The translations under genes and the position numbers were made by a program. Below, in pieces: positions 36,001 to 48,000 of a DNA stretch of 64,000 bases. Position 1 is the stretch's first letter. Every line of letters begins with the position of its first letter. The notes beneath the pieces are model-generated. The model was not told the DNA's origin and did not search any database. It was given only the letters and a program-made list of their open reading frames with translations. The stretch spans positions 372,001-436,000 of the forward strand of contig JAQSEB010000022.1 in the NCBI GenBank assembly GCA_030063045.1, in the 5' to 3' direction. Source of the DNA: Pratylenchus scribneri (taxonomy: Eukaryota; Nematoda; Chromadorea; Rhabditida; Pratylenchidae).

Positions 36001-39000
36001 GGCAACAGGTGAATTTAACTGGGATGGAATTTTATGCTTTTACTTAACTAAAAAATTCAAATATTTTTCTACCCACAATAACCATTGACTATTAAATATT
36101 TTTGAACCCCAAAATCTACAAAATTTGGTGTCCAAACGCTCTTTTTATCTCTGGTTATTTTTGAACACAAAACCTATAGCATTTTTATGGAATTCAGTAG
36201 TACTAAGAAAATGAAATAAAAATTCAAAAAAGTTCGCCTTACCGTATTTCTACCACCCTCAAACTTATTGCATCTTAAGTGTTTTGAAGAAACAAAAAAA
36301 AATTTAGAAAGAGAGGCGCCCTTTGTGTTCCCTGGGGAATTGGGGTCCCTTTCTCCATTCCTTCCATTTTGCGGTAATATCGCTTTCTCTTCCCTTCTTC
36401 CTTTGGAATTTTTTACATAAGCAGCCACTGTTGAAAAGTGGCCAAGGGCCATTTGGGTATTGACTTTCGTAAGGGGAAAAGGGTAAATGGAAAAAGCCTT
36501 TGTAAAAGGTCTTTTTTTCTTCCCGAGGAAAAATCAATATTTTTGGAACAAATTAAAAAACCACCCATATTAAAAAAATCAATTTTAAAAATCATTTTAA
36601 ATCCCTCATAAAAATAATTTTCCCATGTCAGCCCGAGTTGTGGCCACTGCCAAGGATTTGGACAAATTGGGCGAATATCAAGCGCAGGCCAATGATTGGC
36701 TAGTGCCTGCTGGAATTGGCGGCGGCGATGATTCAATACAACCAGCCAAAGCCCGACAACTTTATTTGGAACGTGCCCGGCTTGCCATCAATCAACTTGG
36801 CCAATTGGGCTGCCTTAAAGAATTCATGGAGCCGGTTGATTTGCAAAAATACCGAAATTATATTGGCTTTGTCATATATCCAATTGATTTGGGCACAATT
36901 TCGGAACGAATTCATAACAATTTTTATCGGTAAATTTATTAATGGGGAAAATGGCCAATAAAATTCTCTAAATTTTTATTAGTTATTTTCGCCCAAAAAT
37001 ATAATCATTTAAAAGGGAATTGATTAAAATGTTTAATAAAATATTTATTTTCCAAAATTTTTTTGTCTTACGAAGCAACTTGACTTGGTAATAAATAAAA
37101 ATGCTTTAACAACAATCAAATTAAGCAAAATAATTTAGCATGGAGAGGGGAATATGATGGGTTTTTTAGGTTTTTACGACAAAGGAAAAAATTTAACGGA
37201 AAATGATGGCCCCAAATTTTAGCCAAAAATCAACATTTTTATTAAATTTTTAAACATGCGGTAGAAATATGAAAAATCAAAAAAATAATAAGACAAATTA
37301 TCAAAAATAATGTTTAACCTGTAAACTTTGTTTCAACTCACGTAAAATTTCAACATTTCAACATCAATTTATTATATGAAAAATCATCAAATTTGAGGTA
37401 AATATAAATTGCTTGGCTTTAGGGTCAGATTATTAAATTTTTAGTCCTCCTTATATATTCAAATTTAATTTTTGATTTTGAATATTTTTAATTTTTATTT
37501 TCAATTCCAGTCGAAGTTTGAGCTTCCTATCGGATGTACAATATTTGGCCAAAAATGCGAACATTTACAATGATTCGGACAGTGATGTTGTGCATTGGGC
37601 TGTGACACTTGTCGAGACAATCTTCACATTTATGGAGTAAGTTTGAATTATTTAAACCGAAAAATGAATATAGCACTTAAGGCTTAAATAAAATTTTAAT
37701 GATTTAAGTGAGTTTGTCCCACATTCTTAAATGATATATAATTTAATAAAACTCATCAAAGATATAAATTTATTATAGTTTTGTCAAAATTAAATGGTTT
37801 AAACTGATTTAGATTTTTAGTTCAAAACTATTTTAGCATTTTTTTATTGGGCAACCACTGAAACCGGTTTCGAATTTTTGGTTCCAAACTAATTTAACCA
37901 TTTCTTTAATTTAAAATGTATATAACAATTAAACCAATTTTTAAACTTTTTTTAAAATTTTGTATTAAATCTTTTAAACCAATTTTAGGAATTGGGAAGA
38001 GAAAAATGCCCGTGTACTCTTTGAACAATTGGAGGCGAATGAAACCACCAAAATGCATGCATGGAAGAGGAAATTGCATCCCGCAGAATGTGGTGGTGGC
38101 CGAATTTCGACTCGCGAACTCGAAGTCGACTCCTCTTCCACCTTCCTTCGACGACTCAGCCGTCGGAGCAGTAGCAACAACAACAATAATAATGCAGGCG
38201 AATCAACCAATGCCGCAGCTGCCTCGAATTCACAAAAACAGGGAGGAAATGGCAGCAATAAGCAAAAGGAACAACCACAAGCTGCTGTGCTACAAAAGAA
38301 TAAATTGCCATTATGGACGGTGGAATGCAATGATATGATTGATCGTTTGAATGAAGTGTTCATGGAGGGTGGTTTGACCAATCGGGTGAGCGAATTATAT
38401 TTTTGTATTATTAATTTACCAGTAGCTAATCCCCCCCAAAAAGTGCCATTTTCCCCTCGGGAGGAAAAACACCTTTTATAAAGGGATTTTCCATCGCGGG
38501 CTTTTTTCCCCTTATAAACCCTTACCCAAAGGGCATTTTTAAGCCCATGCCTATCGAGCTACTTTGGATAAAGGAGAAGGGAAGGGAAGGGAAAGGAAAG
38601 GGGAAGGAGAAGGGGAGGAGGAAGGGAAGGGAAGGAGGAAGGGAAAGGAAGGGAAGGAAGGAGGAAGGGAAGAACCCAACACCCCAACTCCCCAGGGACC
38701 CCACCCCTCTCTCTCTCCCTCTCTCTCTCTCCCCACCTACCCCTCCCACCCCTCTCCCTCCTACCCCTCTAACCCTCTGAAAACAAATTTAAAAAAATGT
38801 TTTAAAATTATTTATTTTACAAATATTATTGATTATTATAGAATAATTGGAATAATAATTAAAAATATCATTAAAAAATCAATACAATTATGGTTTAAAA
38901 CTGTTTACAAGACCATTCGAGAAACCATTGATGATCAGAGTGAAAGGTTGATCTTTCAAAAAAGTTTTCTGATGAGCATCCATCCTTTCCAATTTGCCCA

Positions 39001-45000: not shown

Positions 45001-48000
45001 AAAGTCATTTATCGAAAACCATCATATTTTCAAATTCATTTTAGAAATATTAAAAATTTTAAATGCCATCATCCACAAATAAAGATAATAAAAATATGAC
45101 ATTACCCTCATTGACATCCCAAATACTTCCGGAAATCGATTTCAATATCCTTTCTACCGGAATTACAATTAAATCGAATGATCGACTTTCTACACCACGT
45201 TTCATTCCTTTCGATCAAGCCGGTCGTTGCAAGGAATGTAAAGCAACCGAAGTAGAAGTGGATTTTATTGTAACAAAGGATGGAGTGACACTTTATTGTA
45301 GCCGAATCAAAGGATCACGATTCATTGCATTCGACGCAGCATACGAACTTCCAGGACATTGTTTCTTTCGTATCAAAAACAAGGGACGTGTTTTCAACAT
45401 TCCACATGGTGAAATGCCCGTTCCAAAAAGTATCCATCCAAATATAGTTCATCACCCAACATTAGAAGATTTTAATAAAAAAGACAACTCAAATATTCCT
45501 CGTCTACCCCTACCATCTATGAATCAACAAGAGTTGGATCACATGTATCAACAACAACAGCACGAATTGGAACACTTCTATGCTAGTTTGAATGCGGCTA
45601 CAACGGGAATCCCAACTAATTATCATCAAAACCTTAAACCAGTGAAAGAAGAAAGTGTAGAGAGCGATTAAAGCATTTTGAATGAATTTTTAGTTAATCC
45701 ATCCAAATGGAAATATATTATTTAATATTATTATAAAAAGATAAATATAATTATTTGTAATAATTTAAAATTTAAAAATGTATGATCAACATTTATTTGA
45801 CGATAAAGAATTAAAATTTAAATTACCATTGGAATGATAATTTCCGGTCCAACATCAAGTGGAAAGAGTAGTTTTTTATTAAAGTTTATAGCCGAATCCG
45901 ATGAACTCATACACCCTAAACCAGCATCGGTGCTCTATTGTTATGGGGAGATGAACCAGTTAATACCAATTTTTCAAAAGGCAGGTGTTGGGATTTATGC
46001 AGGTGTTCCTCCAGAGGAGATTATCAAAAGACAACCAAAACCATTGCTTCTCATCCTTGATGATTTATTACTCTCCACCCCCGAAACATATCTATCATCG
46101 TTGTTCACAGCTAAAAGTCATCATCAAAATTTTGGTATAATTTTTGTGACACAAAACTTGTTCGAGAAGAAGATCAAAGTGGCCAGACAAAATGCTCAAT
46201 ATTTGGTTTTAATGCGTTCTCCAAACTCGGCTTTATCCATTCGGAATATTGGTGTACAATTGTTCCCAAAACAATTGAGTTATTTTTTGGATGCGTACAA
46301 ACAGGCAACAATGGAACCTTATGGATATTTATTAATTGATATGCATGCTTCATCAGATCCATTATTACGACTAAGAACTAATATATTTAAAGAAGACGAA
46401 GAAAAAATTATATTTATTCCCAAAGATGGTTCATAAAAATTATTGTCAAATTAATCCAATTGTTTGTGAGAATAGAGAATTTTTAAAAAAATTATCAAAA
46501 ATAAAATCGCCAAAGAAACGTTATAAATTATTGAAAACGGCTACAAGAGAACAATTGTTAGCAATTGCAGAGATTTGTTTAAATATTGTAAAAGCACGAT
46601 TTCCTCTAACTACACGTCAAAGATATAAATTGTTACCATATGTAGATATTGTTCGTCAAATTAGTAGATTAAAAAGTGAAAGAGGTGCAAAGAAGTTGAT
46701 TATACAAAAAGGAAGTGGATTACCAGGATTATTTTCATCACTTTTGACACCAATTCTTTTAGAATTGGCGCAATCATATATTATATAAAAAAGATAAATA
46801 TTGATAAAAATTTTTAATTAAAAATGGCAAATAAATTTATTCTATTACCCGATGAAATTTATCGTGGTCTAAGTTCATTCAATAATACGGGTGATATTAA
46901 TTTGGATTTTGTAAAAAATGAATTGGAAAAAACAAAAAGAAAAGGATTACCAAATTCAACTAAAAATATAAATTATAATCAAGAATTACGTCGATATCTT
47001 TATCTACGAAAAGAGAAGGAACAAAAACCAATCAATGTGGCTGTTGCAAATGCCGATGCTATTGCAGGAGCATTATTCAATCAATCAATAGTACCCCAGC
47101 CAAGAATAGAAGTGACTACCCAAGAAACACAGCCTCCACTTTCACAAACACCACAGTCAACAATATCCCCACCAAGAACGGATAGAAGAATAAGAAGAGG
47201 AAGAAGAACAAATAGAGAAAGAAATAATATAAATGAGATTAATAATAGAGAAAATGAGGATGTTAGAGATGTGAGCGAAATTCAAAATACTATTCAAGAA
47301 GGGAATGAGAATATTGACGATATTTATGAGGAAGATAAAGATGAAGAACCGGTGAAAAGAGGGATTAAGCGAAAGCCAGACATTGAAGAATTCCATCCTA
47401 AAATGTGGTCTGTGAAAAAGCTTGATATGGAACCAGTTTTTAGAGAATCCTCAAAGAGAAAATATGAAACAAGGAGAAAGAAGGGGAAACAAATCGATAT
47501 TACACAAAGACATGAGAAACCTATAGAAATTGAAGGAGAAGATGAATTTGGTGATTCTCCTCCACCTTCACCTCTATTACCTATATCATTACCACCCCCA
47601 AGTCGAGAACAATTGGCTATATTGGATACTCCTTCCTCCAAAGGTCAACTAAAATCAAAGGCAATGGTAAAGAAGAATAAAAATAGAGTAACGGCATACC
47701 CTACGGAAACATCAGAGAGAAAGAAGATTGTCAAATCAAATAGAAGAATGGGTCCAGTATCGTTGCTTTCTCGTCCATCCGTTATAAGAAATTATAGTAA
47801 AATCAATGAAGAATTGGAAGCGCCTTCATCCAATTTGGTTTTACCTCCATCCACAGTTCAATTGGCTTTGGAAGCGCCATTAGAATCTAGAGCGCAAACA
47901 TCGATGGAGTTGTATGGGAGACCCGGAGTAAAATATAGACGAGATCCGGAGCTTATTGAAGTCGTTTCACATGGTATGAAGAAAAGGAAGGCGGATATAG

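Follow-up and report, generated by a model that had tools for sequence, protein, structure and literature searches.

A complete Maverick/Polinton element lies within a 64,000-nucleotide window of the Pratylenchus scribneri genome (C22:372001-436000, the whole stretch of DNA analyzed here), and its left region carries a stand-alone PAZ protein, an intronless innexin and a NADAR gene. The explanation that we favor is that a clade of nematode Mavericks carries layered host-interaction genes, with PAZ as a small-RNA sink, the innexin as a source of channels, and the left end as an expression slot. We put the chance that it is right at about even. It is founded on gene content, recurrence, a predicted fold, low ratios of nonsynonymous to synonymous substitution (dN/dS), a common upstream cassette and paralogy. 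Genome-wide searches covered 227 Mb in 276 contigs, and two sister copies, on C48 and C15, served for comparison.

Stand-alone PAZ protein

42672..43214, + strand, stand-alone PAZ protein of 180 amino acids, by Pfam, an AlphaFold2 (AF2) model and PDB matches; core at residues 1-122, then an acidic, low-confidence tail

The protein matches Pfam PAZ at 4e-7 (30.4 bits, cut-off 28.8), and a PAZ match at E<=0.01 is found in 34 of 35 family members; two named relatives are from Meloidogyne hapla and M. enterolobii. The predicted model has the PAZ fold. All of the best 50 solved-structure matches listed come from PAZ domains of Argonaute or PIWI proteins, and the profile matches Drosophila Ago1 PAZ at E 4.6e-7. 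Arg or Lys at position 89 (30/35) and His90 (34/35) align to R315/H316 of Ago2, and position 85 is aromatic or His in 34/35. The first-pass annotation of this region had tied the protein to small-RNA silencing, and its Argonaute-type character by Pfam, PDB matches and the R315/H316 alignment agrees with that. In its predicted fold, and in a His/Arg pair of the pocket for 3' ends, the protein resembles the PAZ domains of human Ago2 and Drosophila Ago1. In contrast to an Argonaute, which has PIWI, MID and PAZ in a single chain, the protein is free, without MID or PIWI, and ends in an acidic tail.

We know of no viral example of a free PAZ protein. Comparison with predicted structures of viral proteins yielded nothing for PAZ at E<=1e-3. 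Scans of viral contigs, one using the PAZ alignment and one the innexin, gave 43 and 37 pattern matches, none of them confirmed, in a collection from which records close to the genome of the window may be missing. Another multi-copy stand-alone PAZ family, of 263-327 amino acids with an acidic N-terminus, was also seen (L090-L094, L096, L097); its members are not Argonautes.

Nematodes silence transposons by a rich small-RNA system. PAZ, often with its CxxC partner, would be a widespread member of the gene set, and a free Argonaute-type PAZ would most likely capture the 3' ends of small RNAs, blunting the silencing of the element. A different role, which we consider unlikely, is that PAZ serves the element itself by binding 3' ends of linear Maverick DNA or transcripts in replication or packaging, with no anti-silencing role. 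The very low dN/dS of PAZ (0.04) fits a core function better than an arms race, and PAZ, the CxxC protein and gene 45063 are widespread, as replication or virion genes are; yet the Argonaute and PIWI structure matches and the matched Ago2 residues count against this role, and PAZ in this lineage adjoins the innexin, apart from the replication and capsid genes.

Innexin beside PAZ

41516..42553, + strand, intronless innexin of 345 amino acids (Pfam 6e-83), with 4 predicted transmembrane segments, YYQW at 103, and Cys 54, 72, 241 and 258

The window copy has the four transmembrane segments, the YYQW motif and the two cysteines per outer loop that mark an innexin. Among 20 other innexin sequences, Cys72 is kept in 19 and each of the other three loop cysteines in all 20. 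The genome holds at least 113 innexin matches (117 of 227 candidates scored). A single match of more than 200 residues is present at 26 loci, all 26 at most 7 kb from a PAZ match, and 19 of these long matches contain no stop. A 27th locus, in two pieces, was counted too since it adjoins PAZ. The long matches are unsplit, whereas the remaining ones are shorter pieces, as expected for host genes split into exons. An M. incognita innexin aligns with three gene copies in the genome in pieces of exon size, mostly at 78-98% and in some cases at 55-63%. A tree built from 49 selected rows joins group A (the window copy and its sisters) to group B (~52%) with support 100/99, and unites A, B and group C (~36%) with support 97/92.

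Virus-borne innexins are already known, and the vinnexins of ichnoviruses are thought to make junctional channels or hemichannels. The present innexin is likewise virus-borne; unlike the vinnexins, it is carried by a nematode DNA element that integrates, and it adjoins PAZ. By analogy, in some lineages the intronless innexin beside PAZ would most likely form viral junctional channels or hemichannels where the element is active.

Left region and its recurrence

40904..41329, - strand, CxxC...CxxC protein (zinc-ribbon-like), pattern found by eye; 97 genome matches
43463..44277, no strand assigned, tandem array between PAZ and 44549, 167-bp unit, 4.9 copies, 98% matches, 31-bp sub-repeats
44585..44977, + strand, FLYWCH-like protein (gene 44549) of 130 amino acids, weak match; 22 genome matches
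45063..45671, + strand, conserved element gene of 202 amino acids; 135 genome matches

From the left terminal inverted repeat (TIR), the order is 38888 (-), NADAR (-), CxxC protein (-), innexin (+), PAZ (+), the 167-bp array, 44549 (+) and 45063 (+). The first-pass annotation presented 38888..45671 as one accessory region with NADAR, zinc ribbon, innexin, PAZ and FLYWCH, a title that omits 38888 and 45063, both within that range. NADAR, innexin and PAZ are borne out by Pfam. The zinc ribbon found no Pfam support and was not accepted as an established identity, as the CxxC...CxxC pattern alone points to it. FLYWCH was likewise rejected as an established identity because its score falls below the Pfam cut-off (E 0.016, 15.8 bits against 23.6); the FLYWCH Cys/His residues are kept in 4 aligned members. 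Gene 45063 had no Pfam match at E<=10, and its poor model (pLDDT 65.6) gave no PDB fold match at 1e-3. A PHROGs comparison of five element proteins gave none at 0.01. The tandem array could be an origin or enhancer. Overlapping blastn pieces suggest that its copy number may vary in the sister copies.

Both sisters also hold PAZ, the CxxC gene, the innexin, 44549 and 45063, with protein identities of 90-99%. Pairwise Nei-Gojobori (NG86) dN/dS of the window against C48 and C15, computed without a significance test, is 0.10 and 0.10 for the CxxC gene, 0.36 and 0.24 for the innexin, 0.044 and 0.046 for PAZ, 0.13 and 0.23 for 44549, and 0.17 and 0.06 for 45063. All values are well under 1, in line with the purifying selection for which the annotation had proposed to look. 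PAZ, the CxxC protein, 44549 and 45063 are found at many sites across the genome, the innexin marks a subset, and NADAR and the diverged 38888 are the only left-region genes particular to the window copy. This distribution does not support the notion of one accessory region.

There is very little probability that host genes were inserted by chance into one decaying Maverick copy. NADAR, which has an intron and is absent from both sisters, would fit such an event, but the five shared genes with their low dN/dS (0.04-0.36) and the unsplit long innexins, set against the short matches of split host genes, already contradict it for all genes except NADAR and 38888. The sisters carry all the genes but NADAR, with a strongly diverged 38888-like gene, and chance host insertion, which the annotation had listed as a refuting outcome, was rejected. 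Its other refuting outcome, copies that lack these genes, does not apply to the five shared genes and does apply to NADAR.

NADAR gene

39923..40527, - strand, NADAR gene of 186 amino acids; exon 1 40527-40246, intron 40245-40202, exon 2 40201-39923 (stop included)

Both exons match Pfam NADAR above the cut-off (1.3e-17 and 4.8e-9). The 44-nucleotide GT-AG intron has a position common to the four loci examined. The protein matches PDB 8bau and 2b3w at E 1.4e-6; we take 8bau to be the Phytophthora NADAR, with a presumed numbering offset of two residues. E45 and K52 align with E43 (the distal-ribose Glu) and K50 (the phosphate Lys). A relative, L022, has Met at the distal-ribose Glu position, so the pair is not universal. 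The catalytic Glu, Asp or His at the E125 position is replaced by Tyr124 in the window copy and by Tyr, Lys, Met and Trp in four relatives. The E125 counterpart in E. coli C7 NADAR, D171, is needed for efficient hydrolysis of guanine-ADP-ribose (PMC11543638). Tyr124 makes reversal of ADP-ribosylation doubtful and counts against the favored explanation. The link to ADP-ribosylation drawn in the annotation stands for the domain and is weakened for a reversal role; as the catalytic acid is missing, NADAR was rejected as a proven ADP-ribosyl hydrolase. The protein could be a binder of ADP-ribose or an enzyme for a different substrate, and binding is more likely than hydrolysis of ADP-ribose. Its dN/dS is 0.13 against L020, at a dS near saturation (1.55), and it looks to be kept by selection.

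A search with NADAR exon 1 finds 21 matches in the genome at E<=0.01; apart from itself none exceeds 67% and none lies in the sisters, where the CxxC gene leads directly to the 38888-like gene. Among the 20 other matches, 9 loci were taken for analysis of neighborhoods, and at 6 of them a homologue (40-44%) of the presumed capsid gene (52485) adjoins NADAR. This points to a second Maverick-like lineage with NADARs of this kind at another place in the element, and direct acquisition from a host gene was dropped on the same evidence. At L026, L027 and L028 no neighboring capsid homologue was seen in some 3.3 kb; L021, which overlaps L026, does have one. At L021/L026 (C80:267946-272929), tandem NADAR genes lie beside a presumed capsid gene, one of them apparently interrupted. 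The NADAR tree did not separate donor from recipient lineage, and among 40 candidates from a protein database none matched at 1e-5.

Viral NADARs are already known from phages, nucleocytoplasmic large DNA viruses (NCLDVs) and RNA viruses, and early expression is reported in several T4-like phages (PMC9503650, accessible text). Both those and the present gene are stand-alone NADARs in a DNA virus-like genome, whereas here the gene is spliced, resides in Mavericks and has Tyr in place of the catalytic Glu, Asp or His. The words Maverick, Polinton and virophage are not present in the main text of that paper.

Promoter-like cassette and a proposed left-end slot

38888..39337, - strand, diverged paralogue of polymerase-side gene 55310, by hhalign against the 55310 family; 28-35% alike elsewhere in the genome
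39450..39674, - strand, promoter-like cassette upstream of 38888, by motif matches
40640..40808, - strand, promoter-like cassette upstream of NADAR, with GAGATGGTCCCT, TTATTTCGAAATC, GATGAGTCATC, GGGTGTGGTC and TATAAATA
54820..55140, + strand, promoter-like cassette that precedes the polymerase-side genes; exact copies of the first motif at 54820 and 54931, and a copy with one mismatch at 54845
55310..55831, + strand, polymerase-side gene, in a frame different from that of DNA polymerase B (PolB) here and in the same frame as PolB in the C25, C33 and C235 copies (L122, L123, L124)

Gene 38888 aligns with the 55310 family by hhalign over 127 columns (prob 96.7, E 4.3e-10), with alignments of just 5 and 4 rows, and the 38888-like gene of C15 matches the polymerase-side gene by blastp at E 0.003. 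NADAR, 38888 and the polymerase side are preceded, in the same order, by GAGATGGTCCCT, TTATTTCGAAATC, GATGAGTCATC, a GGG(C/T)GTGGTC box, TATAAATA and a related leader; the box is not exact upstream of 38888. The first motif, at up to one mismatch, occurs 6 times in the window against 0.12 expected (5 within the element and one outside, at 14017), and for the third the count is 3 against an expected 0.26. The composite motif has 7 occurrences genome-wide and its reversed control 0. Three of the sites are in the window, one precedes the 38888-like gene of C15, and three precede polymerase-side genes (C25, C33, C235).

The simplest history would be that duplication placed the polymerase-side gene and its promoter at the left end as well, and that a further promoter copy came to lie before NADAR. 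From this we infer the order and direction of the gene gains: the left end would be an expression slot born of duplication, holding 38888 and, behind a further promoter copy, a NADAR of the kind carried elsewhere in the second Maverick-like lineage. If the cassettes act as promoters, NADAR and 38888 would be expressed alongside the replication (early) genes, including PolB.

It is improbable that these genes are passenger cargo like wosp/krma of Caenorhabditis Mavericks, selfish or useful to the host and with no role in the cycle of the element. Cargo in nematode Mavericks has been reported (PMC10680173, accessible text), and NADAR varies among close copies and sits at another place in the second lineage. 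However, PAZ and innexin co-occur in three diverged innexin groups, and NADAR sits behind a promoter-like cassette of the element's own.

Weighing the evidence

Several further observations weigh against layered host-interaction genes. The pocket match of PAZ is partial, as the 35 members have, at the position of Ago2 Tyr311, 20 His, 10 Tyr, 4 Phe and 1 Asn. With proximity to gene 45063 as the stand-in marker for a Maverick setting, 49 of 150 genomic PAZ matches have no 45063 match within 22 kb, and 68 of the 150 have no CxxC-gene match within that distance; Maverick location is thus not established for every PAZ match. Stops occur in 33 of the 150 PAZ rows, and the PAZ of C48 has one just past the core. 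The C15 innexin lacks Cys72, one of its four loop cysteines, the innexin has the highest dN/dS of the left-region genes compared, and a long-branch warning attaches to the joining of group C to A and B. Of the six NADAR-capsid loci, four are near-identical and so not independent. The exact composite motif was found neither in the slot of C48, where the cassette is changed, nor on the polymerase side of the two sisters.

The domain content of the left-region genes suggests a counter-defense role, and PAZ, innexin and NADAR together may help the element escape silencing and spread. A stronger form of the favored explanation is tentative, and we hold it possible at somewhat less than even: the first known virus-borne family of stand-alone PAZ proteins would be a silencing-suppressing sink for small-RNA 3' ends, physically coupled to a viral innexin and supplemented by an expandable slot of duplicated polymerase promoters that takes counter-defense genes such as NADAR from other Mavericks.

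The Maverick element and its surroundings

38421..60245, no strand assigned, complete Maverick/Polinton element with terminal AGTAGCTAATCCCC at both ends; 6-bp target-site duplication (TSD) TTTACC at 38415-38420 and 60246-60251
38421..38863, + strand, left TIR
59816..60245, - strand, right TIR, its end beginning AGTAGCTAATCCCC; the inverted arms are 95% alike
55719..59510, + strand, PolB (Pfam DNA_pol_B_2 1.2e-25, 90.9 bits against a cut-off of 25.8); coordinates are the frame between stops

TIRs and a TSD of the 5-6 bp that mark a Maverick/Polinton bound 38421-60245. The core set of PolB, integrase, ATPase and protease is present, with Pfam scores at or above the cut-offs, narrowly so for the rve integrase (32.7 against 32.6), the IVa2/FtsK-type ATPase (21.4 against 21) and the adenain-type protease (21.4 against 21.3). 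The description of an otherwise standard Maverick is thus sound. No Pfam match above the cut-off was obtained for the candidate capsid genes at 49438, 51867 and 52485; we presume 52485-53804 to be a capsid gene from its size, place and general likeness. Widen reportedly described nematode Mavericks with a fusogen and wosp/krma cargo. The 782-amino-acid gene at 49438-51786 has a sub-threshold match to a transmembrane protein close to its C-terminus (E 0.44), and could be a candidate for that fusogen. L123 (C33:2888375 region) is a mosaic: the end of its presumed capsid gene, its 53875 gene and its protease are 95-97% identical to the window, whereas its polymerase side is just 46-52% identical, a sign of recombination between Mavericks.

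Outside the element, an open reading frame with DUF1759 (14084-15418, 2.6e-26), presumably retroelement-like, lies in a stretch at 12-18 kb that is GC-rich and C-skewed. A 240-bp inverted repeat, 94% alike, occupies 7941-8480, and a 41-bp-spaced repeat with AATTCTGATT occupies 5652-5902.

Significance

The element shares TIRs, TSD, PolB, integrase, ATPase, protease and host-type cargo with the nematode Mavericks that carry a fusogen and wosp/krma (PMC10680173), and differs in its innexin, NADAR and recurrent PAZ, none of which is named in the passage of that meeting report consulted here. Among the matches listed by a literature search, with subscription papers mostly outside its scope, none described PAZ, innexin or NADAR in Mavericks. 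What appears to be new is the PAZ family, its pairing with an innexin and the promoter-cassette slot; the Maverick itself is of a known kind. If the explanation is true, PAZ would be a silencing suppressor made from the end-recognition domain of the silencing machinery itself. How Mavericks persist and spread in germlines would become directly testable, and the promoter-like cassette would offer a concrete route for gene uptake by such elements and a handle on expression timing.

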